NCBI RefSeq assembly: GCF_014699055.1 | Contig: NZ_JACXAC010000004.1 | Span: forward strand, 620,001-684,000 | From: Hymenobacter armeniacus | GTDB taxonomy: Bacteria; Bacteroidota; Bacteroidia; Cytophagales; Hymenobacteraceae | DNA length: 64,000 bases | Direction of reading: 5' to 3' | Shown: piece by piece, positions 48,001 to 60,209 of the stretch | Layout of the letters: each line of letters opens with the position of its first letter | Numbering within the stretch: the stretch's first letter is position 1 | Notes under the pieces: model-generated | Database searches by the model: none | The model's input: the letters and a program-made list of their open reading frames with translations, nothing else | Told to the model about the DNA's origin: nothing | Position numbers and translations under genes: made by a program

Positions 48001-49872
<1,872 letters not shown>

Positions 49873-50183
49873 ATAAAGGAGGGGCCCGCGGTGGCGCGGG
49901 CCCGGAGGAAATAAAAAAATAACGCCGGCTGGCGCCAATACAAAAGTAGCCCCTAAACAGGCCCGGGCTGGAAATGATGCAACCGGGAGCGGCCGGCTAT
50001 TTACAATGCCTGAATTTTATTCGAAGATTTTGATATTATTTCAAACCAAAACGATTGTAGGGCTCGTAAGGAAAGGACAAATGCTGTAAACATTTGGGAA
50101 TCCGAAATATCCGGCCGATACGGTGGCAGGTGTTCAGGCTCCGCATTGCCTATTTTTTCACCTTTTCCTTTCACGCTTTTTAC
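49873..50183. promoter_or_regulatory. Divergent region between hscA and the DUF4331 gene
   Basis: On the minus strand, GGGCCCGCG pairs perfectly with CGCGGGCCC around a 4-base loop (49882-49903), 10 bases ahead of the hscA-like ATG. Beyond it a TACTTTTG box (49941-49948) matches TAnnTTTG, without a clear TTG at 19-21 bases. The plus side towards 50184 is AT-rich and shows no exact promoter box. No gene is seen in these 311 bases. Confidence 0.55.
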
Positions 50184-52358
50184 ATGAAAAACCTGCTTAC
50201 TCGTCCCCTGTTCCACGTTGCTCTGCTCGCAACTTCGGTGGGAGGGATGTTGGCCTGGAGTGGCCAACACAACACGCTGGAGGCCTCGAGCCACCGCGAA
50301 GCCCCGCTCATCGCCGACGACCCGCTGGCCGATAACACCGACCTCTACGCCTTCCGCAGCCCCGAATTTCCGGGCAACGACGCGAACGCCGCTGTTACCA
50401 TCATCGCCAACTATATTCCGCTGGAACTGCCCCAGGGCGGTCCCAACTACAACACGTTTGGCGAGAACGTGCGCTACGAAATCCACATCAAGAACGGCAC
50501 GGCCGGCAATGCCGGCGACGACATTACGTACCGTTTCACCTTCACCCGCACCAACCAGGACCCGACCACCTTCTTTAACATCCGGTTGGGGCAGCAGAAC
50601 CTGAAAACCACCTACATCTGCGAAAAAAGCACGGGTGGTGGGGCATTCAGCACCATCGTAAGCAATGGCATTGTGCCGCCGCCCAATGTAGGGCCGCGTT
50701 CCATTACCAGCGCGGCCGGTTTGAACACCACCTACGCCACGCTGATGACTAACGCCATCCAGACGCTCGCCGATGGTACCAAAATATTCTGCGGTCCCAC
50801 CGATGACCCGTTCTTCGCCGACTTGGGCGGCATTTTCGACCTGGGCGGCATCCGTGCTCCCGGCTCGGCCCGCGACGGCCTGGCCCGCAAAAACACCCAC
50901 GCCATCGCCATGCAGATTCCGGTGTCGTTGCTGAAGAAGGCCAGCGCCCCGGCTCTGACCGGCACCACCAACATTCTCGATTCTAACTACATCATTGGCG
51001 TGTGGGCCTCGGCCAGTCGTCCTTCTACTCGCGTGCTGTCGGCTACGGGGGCCGCGCCCACTACTTCGGGCAATTACGTGCAGGTGTCGCGCATCGGCAT
51101 GCCGCTGCTGAACGAAGTCATTAACCCCATTGGGGCCAAAGATGCCTGGAACGCGGGCTCGCCCTACGCCGAGGTGGCCGCCACCGACGATTACCTCTCG
51201 AACCCCGAGTTGGGCCTGTACATGGCCGACAACGTGCCCGTGGCCCCCACGGCGCCCAAGCCTGCTGGCCAGACCTACTACGGCGAAGCCGTGCCCGGCC
51301 TGGGTCCGCTGCGCATTCAATCGAAGTCGCTGGCTGGCCAGGCCCTGCTGGGCGGCTCGTCTTTCGCTGGTTTCGACTTCCGCAACGGCGCGGCTGGCGT
51401 GAGCGCCCTGGCCGGCACGCCTCTGGTGGCCGGCACGGCCCTGGCCCCATTGGCCAGCGGCGGCTACGGCGAGTACCTGCTGCGCCCGGGCAAGCCCCGC
51501 TCGGTTGATATCCTGCCCATCTTCCACACCGGTGTGCCGAACGCTATTCCCTACCAGTTGGCAACTGGCAAAGCCGGCAACCCGCTGGCTGCTGGTAAGC
51601 CTTTCATCAACAACTTCCTGCTGGTGGGGGCCTCGGCCAGCAACCCCGGCGGCGACATGTTGCGCTTGAACATGGCCGTGCAGCCTACTGCTCGTAACTC
51701 GGCTGATTTTAGCTCCGACGGCTTGTTGGCTGCCGCTGTACTCGGGCTCACCGATAGCCGGTACAATGCCAGTAATGCGCTGCAAGCCATTCCGAATATG
51801 GACGGCTTCCCCAATGGCCGCCGTCTGGAGGATGACGTGACCCGCATTGAGTTGAAAGCCGTTGGTGGCGTGGTATTGGCCGCCATTGGCCTGTGGTACG
51901 ACGACTACACGCCTTCGTCGACGAACCCCGTGACCGCCCAGTTGGGCCGCGTGCTTGGCTTCAACGCCGGCGTCAGCGCCAACGACACCACGTTCCGCGC
52001 TTCCTTCCCCTATGTGCAGACGCCGTGGAGCGGCACCAATGCCCAGCGCGTGGCCCTGGCCCAGCGCTCGGCCGGCCTCGGCCTCTCGCCCAACCTGACC
52101 GTGGCCCAGGCTTTCCCGAACCCCTTCGTGGACCGCACCACCCTGCACTTCGAACTGCCCACCCGCGGCACCTTGAGCCTCGTGATTAGCGACGCTGCCG
52201 GCCGCCGCGTGGCCACCGTAGCCAAGGACAAAGCGTTTGCCCAAGGCGTGAACGAACTGACCTGGACGCCGGGCCGCGACGTGGCCCCCGGCCAGTACAT
52301 TGCCACTCTGTACAACGGCAGCACGGTAGTGCAGTCGGTGCGCATCGAGCGCCAATAA
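50184..52358 (+). CDS. DUF4331 protein with T9SS C-terminal sorting domain
   Basis: A 724-residue secreted protein. The start at 50184 gives signal peptide MKNLLTRPLFHVALLATSVGG. The mature part begins with the DUF4331 hallmark SSHREAPLIADDPLADNTDLYAF. The last 80 residues (VAQAFPNPFVDRTTLHFELP to the end) form a type A sorting domain for T9SS export to the surface. Role unknown; the conserved Ser-His-Arg-Glu and Asp residues could bind metal, which is speculation. A terminator follows, then the TPR and HupE-like genes. Confidence 0.88.
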   Translation: MKNLLTRPLFHVALLATSVGGMLAWSGQHNTLEASSHREAPLIADDPLADNTDLYAFRSPEFPGNDANAAVTIIANYIPLELPQGGPNYNTFGENVRYEIHIKNGTAGNAGDDITYRFTFTRTNQDPTTFFNIRLGQQNLKTTYICEKSTGGGAFSTIVSNGIVPPPNVGPRSITSAAGLNTTYATLMTNAIQTLADGTKIFCGPTDDPFFADLGGIFDLGGIRAPGSARDGLARKNTHAIAMQIPVSLLKKASAPALTGTTNILDSNYIIGVWASASRPSTRVLSATGAAPTTSGNYVQVSRIGMPLLNEVINPIGAKDAWNAGSPYAEVAATDDYLSNPELGLYMADNVPVAPTAPKPAGQTYYGEAVPGLGPLRIQSKSLAGQALLGGSSFAGFDFRNGAAGVSALAGTPLVAGTALAPLASGGYGEYLLRPGKPRSVDILPIFHTGVPNAIPYQLATGKAGNPLAAGKPFINNFLLVGASASNPGGDMLRLNMAVQPTARNSADFSSDGLLAAAVLGLTDSRYNASNALQAIPNMDGFPNGRRLEDDVTRIELKAVGGVVLAAIGLWYDDYTPSSTNPVTAQLGRVLGFNAGVSANDTTFRASFPYVQTPWSGTNAQRVALAQRSAGLGLSPNLTVAQAFPNPFVDRTTLHFELPTRGTLSLVISDAAGRRVATVAKDKAFAQGVNELTWTPGRDVAPGQYIATLYNGSTVVQSVRIERQ

Positions 52359-52388
52359 TCGGAGTCAGATTTCTCTGACCGCTGAATG

Positions 52389-52434
52389 AAGAGCCGCCGT
52401 TAGGTCCCGTGATGGGCTGGCGGCGGCTCTTTTT
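52389..52434 (+). terminator. Intrinsic terminator after the DUF4331 gene
   Basis: AAGAGCCGCCG pairs with CGGCGGCTCTT around a 21-base loop, followed by TTT. Confidence 0.8.
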
Positions 52435-52485
52435 CGGTGACGGCTTGCCGGGCCTTACCTTGTTGCCAATTGACTTTCTGCGCTT

Positions 52486-53814
52486 GTGAAAAAGTATCTA
52501 TACCCAAGTTTGCTGCTGGTATTTGGGCTCCTGGCCCTTGCCATCTTCGTTTTTAAGAAACCCGCCGTGCGCACGCCCGAGCTCAAGGAGCGCCACGGCG
52601 ACCTGGCCGCTGGTGGCGAGTGGCTGAACACCAAAGCCGCCATCGAGGGCCTGTTAGCCAAGCTGCGCCAAAACCCCGCCGACCACAAAAGCCGCCTGCT
52701 CCTGGCCCAGGCCTACATGCAGGAAGCCCGCGTGACCGGCGACCACCCCTACTACGACGGCGCGGCCATGGAGCTGCTGGAAGAAGTGCTCCAGGCCGGG
52801 CCCGAGAACTTCGAGGCGCTGTGCTGCAAGGCCTCGCTCAGCCTCACGCAGCACCATTTTGCCCAGGGCCTGGGCATTGCCGAACAAGCCCGGCAGCTCA
52901 ACCCCAACAGCGGCTTCGTGTACGGCCTGCTGACGGACGCCAACGTGGAAATGGGCCACTACGAGGAAGCCATTAAGATGGCCGACAAAATGAACGAGCT
53001 GCGGCCTGACCTGCCGGCGTATGCCCGCGTGAGCTACCTGCGCGAGATTTATGGCGACGTGCCGGGCGCCATTCAGGCCATGGACATGGCCGTGAAAGCC
53101 GGCTACATTGGCCTGGAGCAAACCGAGTGGACCCGCGTGGCCCTGGGCCACCTCCACGAGATAAGCGGCGACACGGCCCGGGCCCGCGGCTACTACCTCA
53201 TGGCGCTGGCGGCCCGCCCCGGCTATGCCTACGCCCTGGCCGGCATGGGGCGCATGGCCGCGGCGCGGCGCGACTACGCCACCGCCATCAGGTATTACCA
53301 GCAGGCCCGCGGCCTGGTGAAAGACTACGCTTTTGCCGATGAGCTGACCGACCTGTACCGCCTGAACGGCCAGCCCAGCGAAGCCCAAAAAATGGCCAAA
53401 GAGTCGATTGCGATGCTGGCCAGCGCCGCCCAGGAGGCCGATGACAACGAGCAGATGGGCCACTACGCCGACCGCGAGCTGGCCTACGCCTACCTCAAAA
53501 CCAACGAACTGGACAAGGCGCTGGAGCACGCCAAAATTGAGTACGGCCGTCGCCCCGACAACATTGACGTGAACGAAACCATGGCCTGGGTGCTCTACAA
53601 GCGCGGCCAATACGCCGAGGCCCAGAAATACATGCAGGTGGCCCGCCGCACCGGCTCCAAAAACCCGGTGCTGCTGGCCCGCGCCGGCCTCATCCTCAGC
53701 AAGCTGGGCAAAACGGCGGAAGGCCAGGCGCTGATTGAAAACTCCCTGAAAACTGCCCCCTACCTCAACCCCGACGTGGAAGCCGAGGGCAAAAGACTGT
53801 TGGCCGTCCGCTGA
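52486..53814 (+). CDS. Membrane-anchored TPR protein
   Basis: A 442-residue protein with an N-terminal membrane segment (YLYPSLLLVFGLLALAIFVF, residues 4-23), then a helical array of about nine tetratricopeptide repeats facing the periplasm. Examples are SRLLLAQAYMQEARVTG, AMELLEEVLQAGPENFEALC and AMAWVLYKRGQYAEAQKYM-like units near the end. The start codon is GTG. It ends one base before the HupE-like gene, so the two are translated together. Probably a scaffold partner of DUF4331 and HupE; function unknown. Confidence 0.85.
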   Translation: MKKYLYPSLLLVFGLLALAIFVFKKPAVRTPELKERHGDLAAGGEWLNTKAAIEGLLAKLRQNPADHKSRLLLAQAYMQEARVTGDHPYYDGAAMELLEEVLQAGPENFEALCCKASLSLTQHHFAQGLGIAEQARQLNPNSGFVYGLLTDANVEMGHYEEAIKMADKMNELRPDLPAYARVSYLREIYGDVPGAIQAMDMAVKAGYIGLEQTEWTRVALGHLHEISGDTARARGYYLMALAARPGYAYALAGMGRMAAARRDYATAIRYYQQARGLVKDYAFADELTDLYRLNGQPSEAQKMAKESIAMLASAAQEADDNEQMGHYADRELAYAYLKTNELDKALEHAKIEYGRRPDNIDVNETMAWVLYKRGQYAEAQKYMQVARRTGSKNPVLLARAGLILSKLGKTAEGQALIENSLKTAPYLNPDVEAEGKRLLAVR

Positions 53815-53815
53815 T

Positions 53816-54511
53816 ATGAAGCTTAATGCAGGAGCGTTTGCGGGCAGTAAGCGGGCGCGCCGCGCCGCGCTGGTGCTGCCTGCGCTCCTATGGCTGGCGC
53901 TGCCCGCGGCCGCGCACGTCCTGAACACGGACCTCTCGAAACTGTCGCGCACCGAGATACTGTGGACCTACTTGCAACTGGGCTTCACGCACATCATTCC
54001 GCTGGGGTTCGACCACATTCTCTTCATCATTAGTCTCTACATCTTGGAGCCGCGGCTCAAACCGGTGCTGCTGCAAGCCACGGCGTTTACGGTGGCGCAC
54101 TCCATCACGCTGGGATTGGCCATGTACGGGCTCATTCAGCCGCTGCCGGCCATCATCGAGCCCATTATCGCGCTGTCCATTCTATTTGTGGCCATCGAAA
54201 ACATCATCACCGACCGGCTCAACCCGTGGCGCGTGGCGGTGGTGTTTGGCTTTGGGCTGGTGCACGGCATGGGCTTCGCCAGCGCCCTCACCGGGCTGGG
54301 GCTGCCGCCAAAGGACTATTTCGGCTCGCTCATTTCCTTCAACGTGGGCGTGGAGGCCGGGCAGGTGGCCGTGATTCTGCTCTGCTGGGCGCTGGTGGGG
54401 CGCTGGGCGGCCGATAAAAGCTGGTACAAGCAGCGGGTGGTGGTGCCGGTATCGGTAGTTATCGGCCTGGTGGCGGCCTACTGGACCGTGGAGCGCGTGT
54501 TTTTTTCCTGA
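53816..54511 (+). CDS. HupE/UreJ-family membrane protein
   Basis: A 231-residue inner-membrane protein with a signal-like N-terminus (ALVLPALLWLALPAAAH) and about six spans. The family's metal-binding motifs are intact: FTHIIPLGFDHILFI, FTVAHSITLGLA and FGLVHGMGFASALTG. HupE and UreJ relatives transport nickel or cobalt for hydrogenase or urease; no such enzyme lies in the window. The metal is therefore open. Confidence 0.85.
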   Translation: MKLNAGAFAGSKRARRAALVLPALLWLALPAAAHVLNTDLSKLSRTEILWTYLQLGFTHIIPLGFDHILFIISLYILEPRLKPVLLQATAFTVAHSITLGLAMYGLIQPLPAIIEPIIALSILFVAIENIITDRLNPWRVAVVFGFGLVHGMGFASALTGLGLPPKDYFGSLISFNVGVEAGQVAVILLCWALVGRWAADKSWYKQRVVVPVSVVIGLVAAYWTVERVFFS

Positions 54512-54563
54512 TTTCCGGGCCTGCGTCCCGGGTTTGCCCTATTCATTTTTTTCGCCGTCGTCG

Positions 54564-54959
54564 ATGCTGCGCTCGTTGCTCGCTTTGCTGTTGCTGGCCA
54601 ACTACCTACTGGTGGTGGGCGCCGGCCTGGCGGTGCGCCGACCTGAAGCCCCGGCGTTTTCCGCCGCCCGGCCGTACGTGCACAGCCGGCACTGCCAGCA
54701 GCAGAACTACCTGCGCCTCGACTGCTTTGAGCAGTGCAACGGCGCGCAGCACGTGGCAAACGTGAAACTGCCCACCGGCACGGGCCTGCATTACCTGGCC
54801 CAACTCAAGGCGCTGGACGTGCACTGCGAGCTAGCCGGCCAGGTGAGCTGCGTGCGGCCATGTGCAGCGCCGGTTGCTGCTGAGAATGTGCCCGCTGGCC
54901 CAGTTGCCGAAGCGGCTGGCTTCGGGGGGTGCCATTCGCCACCGCCCCGCCGGGCATAA
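54564..54959 (+). CDS. Small secreted Cys/His-rich hypothetical protein
   Basis: A 131-residue protein with a signal peptide (MLRSLLALLLLANYLLVVGAGLA). The mature part holds seven cysteines and several histidines (HSRHCQQ, LDCFEQCNGAQH, VHCELAGQVSCVRPCAAP), an arrangement that could bind metal. I use ATG 54564, ahead of which the frame also opens at 54534. Between HupE and a TonB receptor on the same strand. Family not recognised. Confidence 0.65.
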   Translation: MLRSLLALLLLANYLLVVGAGLAVRRPEAPAFSAARPYVHSRHCQQQNYLRLDCFEQCNGAQHVANVKLPTGTGLHYLAQLKALDVHCELAGQVSCVRPCAAPVAAENVPAGPVAEAAGFGGCHSPPPRRA

Positions 54960-55109
54960 GTTGATGAGGAGCGTTGCGACCGGGCCAGGCCCGGCTCAGC
55001 ACCGCCGCGGTGTGCTGCCCCACGGGCAAGCGCGCCACTTCACCTTATTCTCGCATTGAAGCTGTGCAGGGGCCCAAAAGTGCCCCGCCGGCGTCGCATT
55101 CCCGGCGTT

Positions 55110-57443
55110 ATGAACGTTACTTTTTTACTGAAAAGAGCCCACCGCAAGTGGGCCCGGCGCGGTGCGTGCGCGCTGCTGATTGGGCTGGCTGCCCCGTCGG
55201 CCCATGCCCAAAACACCGCCACGTTGCGCGGCACGGTGGCCGATTCTGCCTCCGGACAGCCGCTGGCGGGCGTGAGCGTGGGCCTGCAGGGCCAACCCGG
55301 TGGCACAGCTACCGATGCGCTGGGCAACTTCCGATTGGGCGGACTGCCCACTGGTAGCTACACACTGCGCGTGGGCGCCCTGGGCTACCGTGCTCAATCT
55401 GTGCCCGTGACGCTGGCCGCCGGCGAAACTCAGCGCCTGAGCCTGCGCGTGGCTGCCACCACGCTCAACCTTGCGGAAGTGACCGTGAGCCAGCCCCGCG
55501 ACCCCAACCAGAGCCTGGCTGCCATCTCGCACATCGACCAAGCACTGCGGCCCATCAACTCGGCCCAAGACCTGTTGCGGCTGGTGCCGGGCCTGTTCAT
55601 TGCGCAGCATGCGGGGGGCGGCAAGGCCGAGCAGATTTTCCTGCGCGGCTTCGACTGTGACCACGGCACCGATTTCGCCGTGAGTATCGATGGGCTGCCC
55701 GTGAACATGGTGAGCCACGCCCACGGCCAGGGCTACGCCGATTTTCACTTCGTGATACCCGAAACGGTGGAGCAATTGAAAGTATACAAAGGACCCTACA
55801 CGGCGCGCTTCGGCGATTTTGCCACGGCCGGCGCGGGCGAATTCACCACCAAAACCCGGCTGGAGCGCAGCCAGGCAAAGCTGGAGGTGGGCCAGTTTGA
55901 CACGTACCGGGCGTTGGTGCTGCTGGACCTGCTGGGTGCTGGCCGCCACCTACTCAGCAAGCGTCCGGAAAGCGCCTACGTGGCCGCCGAGTACAACTTC
56001 ACCAACGCCTACTTCGACGCGCCGCAGCATTTCAAGCGTTTCAACGGCTTGGCGAAATACACCGGCCAGCTGTCGGAGCGCACCTCGCTCACGCTGCTGG
56101 GCTCGCATTTTACTTCCAATTGGGACGCCAGCGGACAGATTCCGGAGCGCGCCGTGCGCGACGGCCGCATCTCGCGCTACGGCAGCATCGACCCCACCGA
56201 GGGCGGCCGCACCGGCCGCACCAACGCCAGCGTTATCCTCAGCACGGCGCTGCCGCACGATGCCGTGCTGCGCCAGCAGGCCTACTATTCGAAGTACGAT
56301 TTCGGCTTGTTTTCCAACTTTACCTTCTTCCTGCGCGACTCCGTGAACGGCGATGAAATCGAGCAGACCGACGACCGGCACCTGTTCGGCTACACGGCCA
56401 CCTATGAGCGCGCCGACCAGTTCGGGGCCCGTTCGCTGCACAGCACCCTGGGCGTGGGCACGCGCAACGACTTTTCCACCCTGGGCCTGTTCCGGGCCAC
56501 CCGGCGCCAGATTACCGCGACCACCACCACGGGCCGCCTCTTCGAGCAAAACCTCAACGCCTACCTCGACGAAACCCTCGACCTGACGGACCGCCTCACG
56601 GTGAACGCCGCCCTGCGCGCCGATTTCTTCACGTTTGATTTTCGCGGGCAGCTGGCCGACGAGGCCACCGGGCAGCTGGAGCCGCTACGGGGCCGGGTGC
56701 GCCACGCCCGCGTGTCGCCCAAGCTGAACCTGTACTACCAGCTCACGCCCGCGGTGCAGCTGTTTGCCCGCTCGGGCCTGGGCTTCCATTCCAACGATGC
56801 CCGCGGCGTTATCCGCGACGCTACGGCCAACGTGCTGCCCCGCGCCTTGGGCTACGAGCTGGGCAGCACATTTAAGCCCCTGCCCAGCCTGGTGGTGAAC
56901 GCAGCCCTCTGGAGCCTGCACCTGCAGGACGAACTGGTGTACGTGGGCGACGAAGGCATCACCGAAAGCACCGGCCCCACCCAGCGCTACGGCCTCGACG
57001 TGGCCCTGCGCTACCAGCTCGGCCGCCGGTTGTTCCTCGACGGCGACTTCAACTACAACCACGGCCGCCAGCTGCAGGCCGAAGCCGGCGCCAACTACAT
57101 TCCGCTAGCGCCCACGTTCACCAGCACCGGCGGGCTCACCTACAAGGCCCCGCGCGGCCTGAGCGGCAGCCTGCGCTACCGCCACATCGACTCGCGCCCG
57201 GCCAACGACGATGGCAGCATCCGGGCGCGCGGCTACTTCCTGCTCGACGCCGTGCTGAGCTACACTACGCCCCGCTTCCAGTTCGGTGCCTCTGCGGAGA
57301 ACCTGCTCAACGTGGCCTGGAACCAGGCCCAGTTTGCCACCCAAAGCCGCCTGCCCGGCGAGGCGGCCGAGGGAGTGGACGAGCTGCATTTTACCCCCGG
57401 CACGCCTTTCTATGCCAAGCTGAACGCCAGCGTGTTTTTCTAA
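55110..57443 (+). CDS. TonB-dependent outer-membrane receptor with CarboxypepD_reg-like domain
   Basis: Imports a substrate across the outer membrane using TonB energy. Signal peptide (ARRGACALLIGLAAPSAHA), then a beta-sandwich domain TATLRGTVADSASGQPLAGVSV (residues about 32-110), a plug domain with INSAQDLLRLVPGLFIAQHAG, a His-rich loop SHAHGQGYADFHF, and the 22-strand barrel ending KLNASVFF. The start at 55110 is chosen for its signal peptide. 777 residues. The His-rich plug and the neighbouring HupE suggest a metal complex as substrate; this is inference. Confidence 0.88.
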   Translation: MNVTFLLKRAHRKWARRGACALLIGLAAPSAHAQNTATLRGTVADSASGQPLAGVSVGLQGQPGGTATDALGNFRLGGLPTGSYTLRVGALGYRAQSVPVTLAAGETQRLSLRVAATTLNLAEVTVSQPRDPNQSLAAISHIDQALRPINSAQDLLRLVPGLFIAQHAGGGKAEQIFLRGFDCDHGTDFAVSIDGLPVNMVSHAHGQGYADFHFVIPETVEQLKVYKGPYTARFGDFATAGAGEFTTKTRLERSQAKLEVGQFDTYRALVLLDLLGAGRHLLSKRPESAYVAAEYNFTNAYFDAPQHFKRFNGLAKYTGQLSERTSLTLLGSHFTSNWDASGQIPERAVRDGRISRYGSIDPTEGGRTGRTNASVILSTALPHDAVLRQQAYYSKYDFGLFSNFTFFLRDSVNGDEIEQTDDRHLFGYTATYERADQFGARSLHSTLGVGTRNDFSTLGLFRATRRQITATTTTGRLFEQNLNAYLDETLDLTDRLTVNAALRADFFTFDFRGQLADEATGQLEPLRGRVRHARVSPKLNLYYQLTPAVQLFARSGLGFHSNDARGVIRDATANVLPRALGYELGSTFKPLPSLVVNAALWSLHLQDELVYVGDEGITESTGPTQRYGLDVALRYQLGRRLFLDGDFNYNHGRQLQAEAGANYIPLAPTFTSTGGLTYKAPRGLSGSLRYRHIDSRPANDDGSIRARGYFLLDAVLSYTTPRFQFGASAENLLNVAWNQAQFATQSRLPGEAAEGVDELHFTPGTPFYAKLNASVFF

Positions 57444-57452
57444 TTCTATTGG

Positions 57453-57529
57453 CCGCGAAGCGCAGTGTTTTCAAAAAATAGAGGCCTACCCGAAGCCTGT
57501 CTTATCTTTGAAAACACCATACTTCGCGG
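57453..57529. promoter_or_regulatory. Quasi-palindrome around the -7 box of the repeat-protein gene
   Basis: CCGCGAAG (57453-57460) and GTGTTTTCAAA (57465-57475) pair with TTTGAAAACAC (57507-57517) and CTTCGCGG (57522-57529), with four unpaired bases on each side. TATCTTTG (57503-57510), an exact TAnnTTTG, overlaps the right arm. The gene starts at 57534. No TTG lies at the proper spacing. Confidence 0.65.
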
Positions 57530-57533
57530 TTTT

Positions 57534-60209
57534 ATGAAAAAAAATCTACCCTCTGTTCGCCCTAATTATCTGCCGCGTTTGAGGCAATGGGTGTATCTGC
57601 TAACCTGCTTGCTATCGTTGGCAGGGTTGCAGGCCATGGCTAGCTCGCCTACAGGCCCGACAGTGGCAGCCAGCCCGGCCCCTTCGTTAGCCATCGTCCT
57701 CAACCCCGACGGTTCCCTACGGCCGGGAGCGCAAGGCTCGTTTGATGCGCACCAGTTTAAGATGTTCACAGCACCGGACGGCAAGCCATTTTTTCGGCAA
57801 AGGTCAACTGCCGGTGCGGGCGACGAATACTGGCAACCGGGCTTCGGCATGGCTGGCACCAATAACACCGTCCGTACCGTGGTGCGCTCGGGCACAAATA
57901 TTTACATAGGTGGCGACTTTTCTACCGTTGGCAACGTCGTGGCGCGCAACATAGCGCGGTGGGGCGGCACGAGTTGGAGCAGCTTGGGCAACGGTGCCGC
58001 AAACGGAACCAACGGCCCGGTTTACGCCCTATTGGCGGTTGGTACTGACCTTTATGTGGGCGGCCGCTTTACGCAGGCCGGTGGAATAACCGCCCGTAGC
58101 GTGGCCAAATGGAGCAGCGCCAACTGGACCAGCTTGGGGACTGGCATAGGCACCAATAGCACACAGACTGCTTTGGTGCTGGCGCTTGCCATCATTGGTT
58201 CTGATTTGTACGTGGGCGGTAATTTCTATCAAGCTGGTAACACCTCAGCCAGCAGCGTGGCCATGTGGGACGGCACCGCGTGGAGTGCGCTGGGCACGAG
58301 CCTCAGCAACGGTGTAAGCGGCCTAATACCCGAGATTGACGCAATGGCAGTGGTCGGGACTGATTTGTATGTGGGCGGCAGTTTCACGGCGGCCGGCGGA
58401 GTATCGGCCAATAGAATTGCCAAGTGGAACGGCTCTACCTGGAGTGCGCTGGGGACGGGCATCGGCACCCTTAACAATGGCGGCGTCTGGGCCTTGCTGC
58501 CAGTGGGAACGGACCTCTACGTGGGCGGTGGGTTTTCGGTAGCTGGTGGCGTTACGGTTGATTGCTTGGCGAAGTGGAACGGCAGCAGTTGGAGCCGAGT
58601 GGGCGGTGCGGGCTTCGCCAATGGCCAGAGCAACGGCATTGTCACAGGCCTTGCCTTCGTTGGCACGGAGCTCTACATCACGGGCGCATTTCGGCAGTCG
58701 GCCGGTGCGGTTGCCGACTTTACGGCCCGATGGGACGGCACGACGTGGCGTGGCGTGGGCACGGGCCTGAGCGGTACGATAGGTGCAGCTGCTTACTCCC
58801 TGCTTGTCGTGGCCAACGAGGTGTATGTGGGAGGTAAATTTTTGACCGCCGGTGGCAGCCGTGCCGACAACATTGCCCGGTGGAACGGCACCAATTGGAG
58901 CCCTCTGTCACCTAATATGGCCGCTGCTAATGGTCTGGACGCAGTTGTTTTTTCTTTAGGAATAGCCGGTAACAACACTGTGTACGCGGGAGGCCTTTTT
59001 CAGCAGGCCGGAGGTGTCGTTGCCGAAGGAATTGCCCGCTGGAACGGAGCGAGTTGGAGTAGTTTGCCGAGCGGAAGCTATTCGGGTGGGATGCAGGTAC
59101 GGGCCATCGCGGTGGCGGGCACCGACGTGTACGTGGGAGGCATCTTCCACAACGTAGGTACGGTGCCGGCCGAATACGTGGCCAAGTGGAACGGCACCAC
59201 TTGGAGCAGCTTGGGCACCGGCACGAGCAACGGCGTAAACAGCTATGTGTACGCGTTAGCGGTAGTAGGCAGCGACTTATATGTGGGTGGCAATTTTACC
59301 CAGGCCGGGGGAAATTCGGCCAATTACGTTGCCAAATGGAACGGAACCAACTGGAGCAGCCTTGGTCCGGCCGGCGCCAACGGCGTCGGCAATCCCAACT
59401 CTGCTGCCGTCCAGGCACTCGCCGTCGTGGGCACCGACCTTTACGTGGGTGGGCTGTTCAATCGGGCCGGCAGCACCACGGTCAGCAACATCGCGCGTTG
59501 GAACGGCACCGCCTGGAGCAGCGTTGGCACCGGGGTTAGTGGGTCGGTGCTGGCGCTGGCAGTGGCAGGCAACATAGTGTACGCGGGCGGTTTTTTTAAC
59601 CAAGCGGGTGGAGTGCCAGCCAACCAGGTGGCCCGGTGGGACGGCACGGCTTGGAGCAGCCTGGGCTCCGGCCCAGCTAACGGACTCACAAGCCAAGGCT
59701 ACGTGCAGGCCCTGGCTGTGGTCGGTTCCGACCTCTACGCGGGAGGCTTCTTCACGCAAGTCGGCGGAGTGGCCACGCAAAACCTGGCCCGGTGGGATGG
59801 CACGAGTTGGAGCCGCGTCGGTACGGGCACGAACGGCGCAGTATATGCCTTGGCTGCCGTTGGAAACCAACTCTACGCCGGTGGGTCTTTCACGGCGGTG
59901 GGCGACGAAACGAAAGTTATGAACAGCTTCGGCATCTATGACCCCAGCGCACCCACTGCCACTGCCGGCGCAACGCCAACCACGGCCGTGAGCCTATACC
60001 CTAACCCTGCATCGCAGCAAGTTACTTTTTCTCTCCCTCCGGCTAATAGACTCCGATACATCGAACTAAGGGACGCGCGCGGCCAGCTACTGCGGCAGGT
60101 GCCCCTGCAAGCGGGGACGGGCGCCGTCGCACTGCCTGTTAGCGGACTACCAACCTGTGTATACCTGCTGCGCTGTGGCCAAGTGGTTCGGCGGTTATTG
60201 GTGCCGTAA
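57534..60209 (+). CDS. T9SS-exported protein with 13 beta-propeller-like repeats
   Basis: An 891-residue secreted protein. Signal peptide about residues 1-36 (WVYLLTCLLSLAGLQAMA). Residues about 110-790 are 13 full repeats and a partial one, each about 48-54 residues, with the pattern VGxDLYVGGxFTQAGG, then ARWNGTxWSSLGxG. Such blades resemble kelch or delta-60 repeats and would form one or two beta propellers. The last 75 residues (SLYPNPASQQVTFSLPP onwards) are a type A sorting domain. Likely a surface or adhesion protein; ligand unknown. Confidence 0.88.
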   Translation: MKKNLPSVRPNYLPRLRQWVYLLTCLLSLAGLQAMASSPTGPTVAASPAPSLAIVLNPDGSLRPGAQGSFDAHQFKMFTAPDGKPFFRQRSTAGAGDEYWQPGFGMAGTNNTVRTVVRSGTNIYIGGDFSTVGNVVARNIARWGGTSWSSLGNGAANGTNGPVYALLAVGTDLYVGGRFTQAGGITARSVAKWSSANWTSLGTGIGTNSTQTALVLALAIIGSDLYVGGNFYQAGNTSASSVAMWDGTAWSALGTSLSNGVSGLIPEIDAMAVVGTDLYVGGSFTAAGGVSANRIAKWNGSTWSALGTGIGTLNNGGVWALLPVGTDLYVGGGFSVAGGVTVDCLAKWNGSSWSRVGGAGFANGQSNGIVTGLAFVGTELYITGAFRQSAGAVADFTARWDGTTWRGVGTGLSGTIGAAAYSLLVVANEVYVGGKFLTAGGSRADNIARWNGTNWSPLSPNMAAANGLDAVVFSLGIAGNNTVYAGGLFQQAGGVVAEGIARWNGASWSSLPSGSYSGGMQVRAIAVAGTDVYVGGIFHNVGTVPAEYVAKWNGTTWSSLGTGTSNGVNSYVYALAVVGSDLYVGGNFTQAGGNSANYVAKWNGTNWSSLGPAGANGVGNPNSAAVQALAVVGTDLYVGGLFNRAGSTTVSNIARWNGTAWSSVGTGVSGSVLALAVAGNIVYAGGFFNQAGGVPANQVARWDGTAWSSLGSGPANGLTSQGYVQALAVVGSDLYAGGFFTQVGGVATQNLARWDGTSWSRVGTGTNGAVYALAAVGNQLYAGGSFTAVGDETKVMNSFGIYDPSAPTATAGATPTTAVSLYPNPASQQVTFSLPPANRLRYIELRDARGQLLRQVPLQAGTGAVALPVSGLPTCVYLLRCGQVVRRLLVP

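Follow-up and report, generated by a model that had tools for sequence, protein, structure and literature searches.

A DUF4331, TPR, HupE, and TonB receptor locus of Hymenobacter armeniacus as a candidate transition-metal capture and uptake module

The window analyzed here, 64,000 nucleotides of Hymenobacter armeniacus DNA (contig NZ_JACXAC010000004.1, positions 620,001 to 684,000), holds a row of five genes on the forward strand between nt. 50184 and 57443. They encode, in order, a DUF4331 protein, a tetratricopeptide repeat (TPR) protein, a HupE_UreJ_2 permease, a small cysteine-bearing protein, and a TonB receptor. A first-pass annotation made from the sequence alone had called this row, and Pfam and NCBIfam matches together with open reading frames (ORFs) recovered every gene in that order and on that strand. 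We think it probable, with modest confidence, that the locus serves to capture and take up a transition metal, in Hymenobacter most likely nickel.

The DUF4331 gene (nt. 50184-52358, forward strand) matches the profile PF14224 over its full length (398.7 bits against a cut-off of 27) and begins at an ATG (nt. 50184) conserved in seven relatives; the closest named relatives of its product are Hymenobacter proteins (identity up to 89%). The protein has a signal peptide and ends in a type A sorting domain of the type IX secretion system (T9SS; TIGR04183, 26.5 bits against a cut-off of 23), with PF18962 falling below its cut-off (12.7 versus 27). The mature chain is predicted to start at nt. 50286 with SSHREAP, a sequence that Ala precedes in 104/104 ORFs from named genomes. 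For wider comparison we used 296 evenly drawn Bacteroidota genomes, 38 of which carry DUF4331 (19 full length, 19 split), giving 37 neighborhoods besides that of the window. A small residue followed by X-X-His stands at the predicted cleavage site in the window, in 39 of 40 frames from the Bacteroidota loci (the exception, locus L057, reads ADHADAP), in 106 of 111 named-genome frames (the other five are fragments), and in 16 of 18 plasmid frames. The residue before X-X-His in the other Bacteroidota loci (n = 39) is Ala in 35, Ser in three, and Gly in one. Predicted mature starts across lineages are SSH, ADH, SDH, and ASH, the X-X-His being kept as its neighbors vary.

The mature protein is thus predicted to start with the X-X-His pattern of the amino-terminal copper and nickel (ATCUN) motif, defined as a site for both metals in the part of PMC7701195 available to us, and metal binding at this start would follow by analogy. 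No variation occurs at residues 1-7 in alignments of 17 and of 67 sequences, the larger set having been chosen by a pattern for the N-terminal motif that occurs in 77 of 78 loci, the remaining one a fragment. Model confidence is low over residues 1-10 (mean predicted local distance difference test (pLDDT) scores of 58 and 48 in two models), and invariance of residues 1-7 together with low pLDDT suits a mobile ligand arm more than it does a packed core.

The AlphaFold2 model of the DUF4331 core (pLDDT 81, predicted TM-score 0.86) comprises a beta-sandwich plus a helical part. A profile search of solved structures gave nothing better than E 0.14, and at E <= 0.001 Foldseek returned 0/767 matches for the full core and 0/513 for residues 1-278, an absence that excludes nothing. 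With VIA-align, the best match to the full core was a Sas6 chain (Z 9.1, 4.2 Å, 188 residues), and residues 1-278 matched antibody V domains (Z 7.1 or less); the alignment is weak, and we read the modeled fold only as a probable immunoglobulin (Ig)-like beta-sandwich with insertions. The Ang domains discussed below are also described as beta-sandwiches in the accessible part of PMC12537917; we claim no kinship between them and DUF4331. More than 100 columns are invariant across the 67 sequences, unusually many for a secreted protein, and such conservation would suit a secreted enzyme that needs its partners' metal for its active site or maturation, with the TPR protein as its chaperone. The tandem and giant copies (1259-1344 a.a) in Hymenobacter and the split form in 19/37 Bacteroidota loci point the same way. 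We regard this alternative as quite improbable, as neither sequence nor Foldseek searches matched a solved enzyme (within the limit just given) and the DUF4331 neighborhoods were not marked by any enzyme family beyond close relatives.

The TPR protein (nt. 52486-53814, forward strand, GTG start) matches TPR Pfam families and has an N-terminal membrane anchor; several relatives have a lipobox-like start. By family profile, one TPR family adjoins DUF4331 on the same strand in 35/37 Bacteroidota loci, the misses being L042 and L055, the latter with a weaker match on the opposite strand. The TPR, HupE, and NicO counting profiles were trained partly on counted loci (the TPR profile on 15 proteins, seven of them from plasmid loci). 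Among 28 Bacteroidota receptor loci without DUF4331, the TPR profile gave a single match above 60 bits (92), so it does not pick up just any TPR protein.

Outside Bacteroidota we sampled plasmids only. DUF4331 occurs on 36 plasmid records, of which 34 are non-Bacteroidota; 18 of these were examined, mostly one per genus and not at random (five by profiles alone, without a gene table), and the other 16 come mostly from the same genera. The triad of DUF4331, TPR, and permease genes lies on one strand in 12/18 of these loci (in L203 in the order TPR-HupE-DUF4331), including 6/9 of a second batch (L198-L206) in which L199 and L200 belonged to the NicO training set. The triad permease is a HupE_UreJ_2 protein in six loci (L186, L187, L188, L192, L202, and L203) and of NicO type in six others (L185, L191, and L198-L201). 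The two NicO-type proteins tested, from L185 and L191, both pass the Pfam cut-off and have His-rich loops, and the permeases of L185, L199, and L200 are annotated as 'nickel transporter'. That two permease families of nickel/cobalt kind fill one slot is the strongest sign of transition-metal handling in our data. Neighborhood conservation, which the first-pass annotation had put forward as a check and whose lack it had named as a refuter, was found and that refuter is excluded, the triad recurring in Bacteroidota, Pseudomonadota, Actinomycetota, and Cyanobacteriota. Of the remaining plasmid loci, L184 has the DUF4331-TPR pair without a permease, and L204 and L206 hold weak DUF4331 relatives with no visible signal peptide.

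The HupE gene (nt. 53816-54511, forward strand) starts one base past the TPR stop codon. The transporter type proposed for it at first pass holds, with PF13795 far above its cut-off (156.7 versus 24.5 bits) and PF04955 also passing (36.8 versus 23); no Protein Data Bank (PDB) sequence matched at E <= 10. Its motifs are HIIPLGFDH, AHSITL, and GLVHGMGFA, the first of which keeps the H, P, G, and DH of the HPXXGXDH quoted for HupE/UreJ in order and is one residue longer. HupE of Rhizobium leguminosarum is described as a nickel transporter and that of Synechocystis as a cobalt transporter in the available parts of PMC7689651 and PMC4284471. The window protein shares with them the HupE/UreJ clan and an H...DH motif in the first helix, and differs in its best match (PF13795), in the longer motif, and in that no hydrogenase was found in its genome.

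The predicted mature N-terminus of the window HupE is a histidine, His34 (PAAA|HVLNTD). A histidine follows Ala (58) or Gly (2) at the end of the signal peptide, by predicted cleavage, in 60/60 HupE homologs from named genomes; a stricter recheck of this set gave 59/60, and the last, a long second HupE at L077, reads LLA|HPMPNS by eye. The DUF4331-linked permeases share this start in 5/8 HupE proteins of the Bacteroidota loci and in 11/12 plasmid permeases (by eye; L198 undecided). Four HupE proteins encoded away from both DUF4331 and the receptor (L180-L183) have no signal peptide. The nearest described parallel is the anglerases Ang-1 and Ang-2 (Franco Cairo et al. 2025, PMC12537917), for which the accessible part of the paper reports His as the first mature residue of domains fused to HupE/UreJ-2 permeases, with binding of copper and nickel. 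The window HupE resembles them in PF13795, signal peptide, and the predicted His at the mature start. It differs in that about 24 residues separate His34 from the motif at residue 59, too few for a separate Ang domain (about 175 residues, Ig-like). The triad HupE proteins of L186, L187, L188, and L192, from other phyla, are long enough for one (366-406 a.a). The terms 'DUF4331', 'TPR', 'tetratricopeptide', and 'NicO' do not occur in the main text of PMC12537917, and we found no parallel to the X-X-His start of DUF4331 in the part of that paper available.

The TonB receptor (nt. 55110-57443, forward strand) consists of a CarboxypepD_reg domain, a plug (62.1 bits), and a barrel (87.4 bits) by Pfam, and its best PDB match is a TonB-linked receptor (E 8e-16, residues 19-268). 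It is single-copy in the window genome, and a match at E <= 1e-60 is present in 45/296 Bacteroidota genomes. The His-rich plug loop noted at first pass, with the motif VNMVSHAHGQGYADFHFVIP, proved to be a family signature, H-x-H-G-[QN]-G-[YF], kept in 50/57 members including the window's and in 0/5 outgroups. In a receptor tree (n = 64) made by a quick method and with long outgroup branches, 59 family members split from five other TonB receptors with a support of 95 (Shimodaira-Hasegawa-like approximate likelihood ratio test, SH-aLRT). Members linked to DUF4331, urease, and nikR are interspersed in it, and seven changes or more are required to explain the DUF4331 link, which indicates that it arose or was kept repeatedly.

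The other company of this receptor family includes nickel genes. In 4/28 Bacteroidota loci without DUF4331 (L152, L167, L168, and L172), the receptor gene ends a urease operon, after the permease and urea transporter genes. Pfam confirmed the subunits, UreE, F, G, and D, and the urea transporter in L167. The genes of L152, L168, and L172 were named by their similarity to those of L167 (the L172 contig begins inside the operon), and ureC was also supported by a urease profile search in three of these four genomes. In other loci among the 28, the receptor is accompanied by long HupE proteins. These operons (ureABC-EFGD-permease-urea transporter-receptor) thus end in the same receptor family; they differ from the window genome in that its urease lies on another contig with no family receptor beside it. 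The permease of these operons (L167:6850, L152:5708) was considered as UreH from its H...DH motif; no Pfam family scored over its cut-off, and we call it a permease only. In L152 the urea transporter and receptor genes are separated by a gene for a small His-rich protein (L152:8523-9011) without a Pfam match, which might store or carry nickel.

Of 42 plasmid records with relatives of the receptor, 39 are non-Bacteroidota, with identities of 31-36% among the matches listed. The gene nikR is the direct neighbor of the receptor on four plasmids, those of Afipia (pHCG3), Methylomagnum, Polymorphobacter, and a Comamonadaceae; a Paraburkholderia plasmid has the order nikR-hoxN-receptor; and on Cupriavidus necator pHG1, hoxN lies about 4.4 kb from the receptor, on the same strand, after hox genes. 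Altogether, the receptor is near nikR or hox/hyp genes in 6/10 proteobacterial plasmid loci read out of the 39, or in 4/8 without pHG1 and pHCG3, which were chosen as hydrogenase plasmids. The other four loci (Indioceanicola, Methylobacterium, Sphingobium, and M. extorquens CM4) had no nickel gene in view. The NikR-linked receptors are one family with the window receptor, sharing the motif H-x-H-G-Q-G-[YF] at the identities given; the window receptor differs in sitting with DUF4331, TPR, and HupE genes instead of nikR. It also carries a CarboxypepD_reg domain. The available part of PMC4284471 mentions nickel-regulated outer membrane transporters, and that of PMC7689651 cites Helicobacter pylori FrpB4 as needed for nickel scavenging.

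Nickel is favored for Hymenobacter on two grounds, the receptor family and the presence of urease in the genome. The earlier statement that no hydrogenase or urease gene lies here is true of the window, and no NiFe hydrogenase was found in the window genome; it does not extend to urease, which is encoded on another contig (G000:C8:339035). In that cluster (L193:6917-11844), the gamma-like ORF is 245 a.a, long enough for a beta-subunit fusion. Urease (E below 1e-50) is present in 11/296 genomes, and the other two Hymenobacter genomes sampled are also urease-positive. The receptor occurs in 9/11 urease genomes versus 36/285 others (Fisher p 9e-7, without kinship correction), and DUF4331 in 5/11 versus 33/285 (Fisher p 0.007, likewise uncorrected).

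From these parts we propose the following route. Mature DUF4331, taken through the general pathway and the T9SS to the cell surface, would bind a metal or metal complex by its S-S-His-Arg-Glu start (ATCUN-type, NH2-X-X-His), and the TonB receptor with its His-rich plug would then move the metal across the outer membrane, energized by TonB. The anchored TPR protein may serve as a periplasmic docking or assembly factor and the small cysteine-bearing protein as a possible carrier, and the HupE permease, with its predicted His-first mature chain, would carry the ion through the inner membrane, with urease as its final destination. Gram-positive bacteria would do without the receptor step. The genes, the triad, the receptor family and its nickel company, the His residues at predicted N-termini, and the urease of the genome rest on sequence and comparison; we infer the metal binding by DUF4331, the hand-over between proteins, import over export, and nickel over copper or cobalt.

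A number of observations weigh against this module reading. On the protein side, the signal peptide cut of DUF4331 was placed without a dedicated predictor, and with a cut at ASS|H the histidine would be residue 1 and not 3. The SSH forms would thus yield His1 if cut two residues on. The ADH and SDH forms have Asp before His, and signal peptidase I would not be expected to accept Asp directly before the cleavage site. A start with His3 (or His2) therefore suits every form. The HupE proteins of L038, L047, and L048 (3/8) are short and have no signal peptide, a second HupE_UreJ_2 is encoded elsewhere in the window genome, and the direction of HupE/NicO transport is not evident from sequence. The window-genome urease has its own NicO-like permease beside it, just below the Pfam cut-off. 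On the plasmids of the Rhodobacterales loci L189, L190, and L205, DUF4331 keeps company with type II secretion genes, and neither TPR nor permease genes are present there.

The gaps in the neighborhoods belong here as well. HupE is near DUF4331 in 8/37 Bacteroidota loci and missing from the other 29, the receptor is near it in 18/37 (by family profile), and none of the 18 plasmid loci has a receptor of this family within 6-7 kb of DUF4331 (L190 was seen on one flank only). Such counts would fit a case in which gene order were inherited without joint function, or if DUF4331 and TPR alone cooperated with HupE and the receptor as bystanders. We hold this to be very improbable: chance adjacency within 10 kb in the 38 DUF4331 genomes would amount to 0.17 genomes (HupE) and 0.13 (receptor), against nine and 19 observed, respectively, with the window genome included. 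The spread of the triad over four phyla and the repeated gain or retention of the DUF4331 link on the receptor tree also count against bystanders. Two of the organisms outside Bacteroidota carry both the receptor and DUF4331, Comamonadaceae OTU4NAUVB1 (on two plasmids) and Variovorax PDNC026 (about 15 kb apart). Within Bacteroidota, DUF4331, TPR, HupE, and receptor genes lie on one strand in 50/62 named-genome loci (of at least 20 kb), which come mostly from one genus and are not independent. The metal-handling system suggested at first pass is partly upheld: the conserved triad and the receptor family found with nickel genes support it, whereas the cysteine-bearing protein is limited to Hymenobacter and HupE and the receptor have the patchy distribution just given. 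On the whole, the metal reading is stronger than the first-pass annotation could show.

The genes around DUF4331 elsewhere could also indicate stress defense. An extracytoplasmic function (ECF) sigma factor gene lies in the same 19-kb stretch in 14/37 Bacteroidota loci and an RskA-type anti-sigma gene in 13 by clustering (12 by profile); in Pseudoalteromonas they directly precede DUF4331. Cu/Zn superoxide dismutase (SOD) is encoded in the stretch of three loci and a glutathione-peroxidase-like protein in four (by eye). RcnA resembles NicO. Nickel/cobalt exporters such as RcnA are listed in the available part of PMC7689651. A defense against metal or oxidative stress under ECF/RskA control, in which metal is pumped out by the permease or trapped by the secreted proteins and DUF4331 guards the envelope, would account for this company. 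We judge it unlikely: TonB receptors serve import, and one is near DUF4331 in nearly half of these loci (18/37), that of the window sharing its family with the urease- and nikR-linked receptors. The ECF and RskA-type genes are possible regulators of the module. Loci with such genes are L034, L037, L041, L049, L051-L057, L059, L060, L066, and L187.

Other observations concern the identity of the metal. Of the 38 DUF4331 genomes, five have urease, three a clear NiFe hydrogenase (E below 1e-60), and two LarA, without overlap, and a search for nickel SOD gave no match anywhere, controls included, and so was uninformative. A shared need of nickel enzymes thus finds no support in the majority of these genomes, 28/38 having none of the three. 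One receptor relative, that of M. extorquens CM4, is near cobalamin genes instead of nickel genes. Copper, or cobalt, could thus be the cargo of the same capture and uptake layout, with the receptor's nickel company belonging to other branches of its family. Besides these absences and the Cu/Zn SOD genes, copper is supported by the accessible part of PMC12537917, where the Ang-1 domain bound copper more tightly than nickel (dissociation constants of 74 versus 220 nM), and by the ATCUN motif being a copper as well as a nickel site (PMC7701195, as far as available). We consider this alternative rather unlikely, as receptor relatives adjoin nikR, lie near hoxN, and end urease operons, and the NicO permeases of the triad are His-rich. 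Regulation by a cobalamin or NiCo riboswitch was likewise rejected: Rfam searches at gathering thresholds found neither in the window (tRNAs only) or in 15 related loci, seven of which gave nothing and eight of which gave only tRNAs, three 5' ureB small RNAs inside ureC, and one SAM-I/IV riboswitch. Elsewhere, in the 28 of 38 DUF4331 genomes, copper, cobalt, or an unknown nickel user are possible cargoes or recipients, and nickel alone is doubtful.

HupE permeases, anglerases, and nikR-linked receptors have been described before. The first-pass remark that the role of DUF4331 was not established stands in the literature searched (open-licence PubMed Central), where no paper naming DUF4331 or the triad was found. 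Nor did that literature yield the spread of the triad over four phyla or the X-X-His start of DUF4331. A secreted nickel-binding DUF4198 protein, described in the accessible part of PMC12537917, is similar in having an N-terminal His and lying near TonB receptors and nikR; it differs from DUF4331 in belonging to a separate Pfam family, and DUF4198 had no match among the scanned proteins. We put forward tentatively, as a possibility short of probable, that DUF4331 founds a new class of surface metal-capture protein, whose X-X-His N-terminus would catch nickel or copper outside the cell and pass it by way of a TPR adaptor to a His1 HupE/NicO permease, a system spread over at least four phyla of Gram-negative and Gram-positive bacteria, to which Bacteroidota would have added the receptor. 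DUF4331 is widespread, and its recurrent gene order with one TPR family and a metal permease in four phyla gives it a role that can be tested. The anglerase idea, in which a mature N-terminal His feeds a permease, would thereby grow from a single protein to a surface system of several proteins, and the locus provides a candidate route for nickel across the Bacteroidota outer membrane.

The small cysteine-bearing protein (nt. 54564-54959 from the first ATG, forward strand), exported or anchored, has the seven cysteines described at first pass, of which only the core C-x9-C-x3-C recurs, in 46/55 loci with a HupE-receptor gap (window counted); the nine misses are all non-Hymenobacter. Neither the window protein nor its homolog in L039 matched a Pfam or NCBIfam family. 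In these data the protein is confined to Hymenobacter and looks like an add-on of that genus.

Whether the row forms one transcript is also to be weighed. A terminator-like hairpin followed by a T run (nt. 52388-52434, forward strand) lies between the DUF4331 and TPR genes, so that a single transcript is not assured, another point against the module. Its surroundings (nt. 52375-52445) fold at -41.8 kcal/mol (z -5.5), and it is among 12 terminator-like sites found versus 8.1 in shuffles. A sigma-70 promoter scan gave three weak matches, none upstream of DUF4331. DUF4331 may be mainly on its own transcript, with TPR, HupE, the cysteine-bearing protein, and perhaps the receptor forming a second unit.

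Variant forms of DUF4331 were also noted. The split form consists of two adjacent short genes (L049-L067; e.g., L051:8550-9827), with ADHIDAP or a like sequence directly behind the signal peptide of the first half and a lipoprotein-like second half in those inspected; a TPR gene lies alongside on the same strand in 18/19 of these loci. The giant DUF4331 of some Hymenobacter is a second copy, mostly straight after the normal one (L112:5569-9417, L110, L113-L116, L118, L119, L121-L123, L125, L129, L134, and L143), and several of these loci have the TPR, HupE, and receptor genes upstream of the DUF4331 pair. On the Rhodobacterales plasmids (L189, L190, and L205), a gene of about 75 a.a follows DUF4331, and then come reversed type II secretion genes. 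A parallel module (L149:1856-12693, L169:8508-13271) combines DUF3500, a long HupE whose chain begins with His past the signal peptide, and a receptor of the family described here, joined in L149, a plasmid, by a di-haem cytochrome c peroxidase (MauG-type) gene.

Downstream of the row, a beta-propeller protein with Rax2/DUF5122 repeats (nt. 57465-60209, forward strand) has a weak T9SS tail, below cut-offs, and nothing points to its membership in the module. Upstream of DUF4331 and divergent from it lies a DnaK-like HSP70 gene (nt. 48001-49938, reverse strand), an arrangement shared with the Hymenobacter locus L044.

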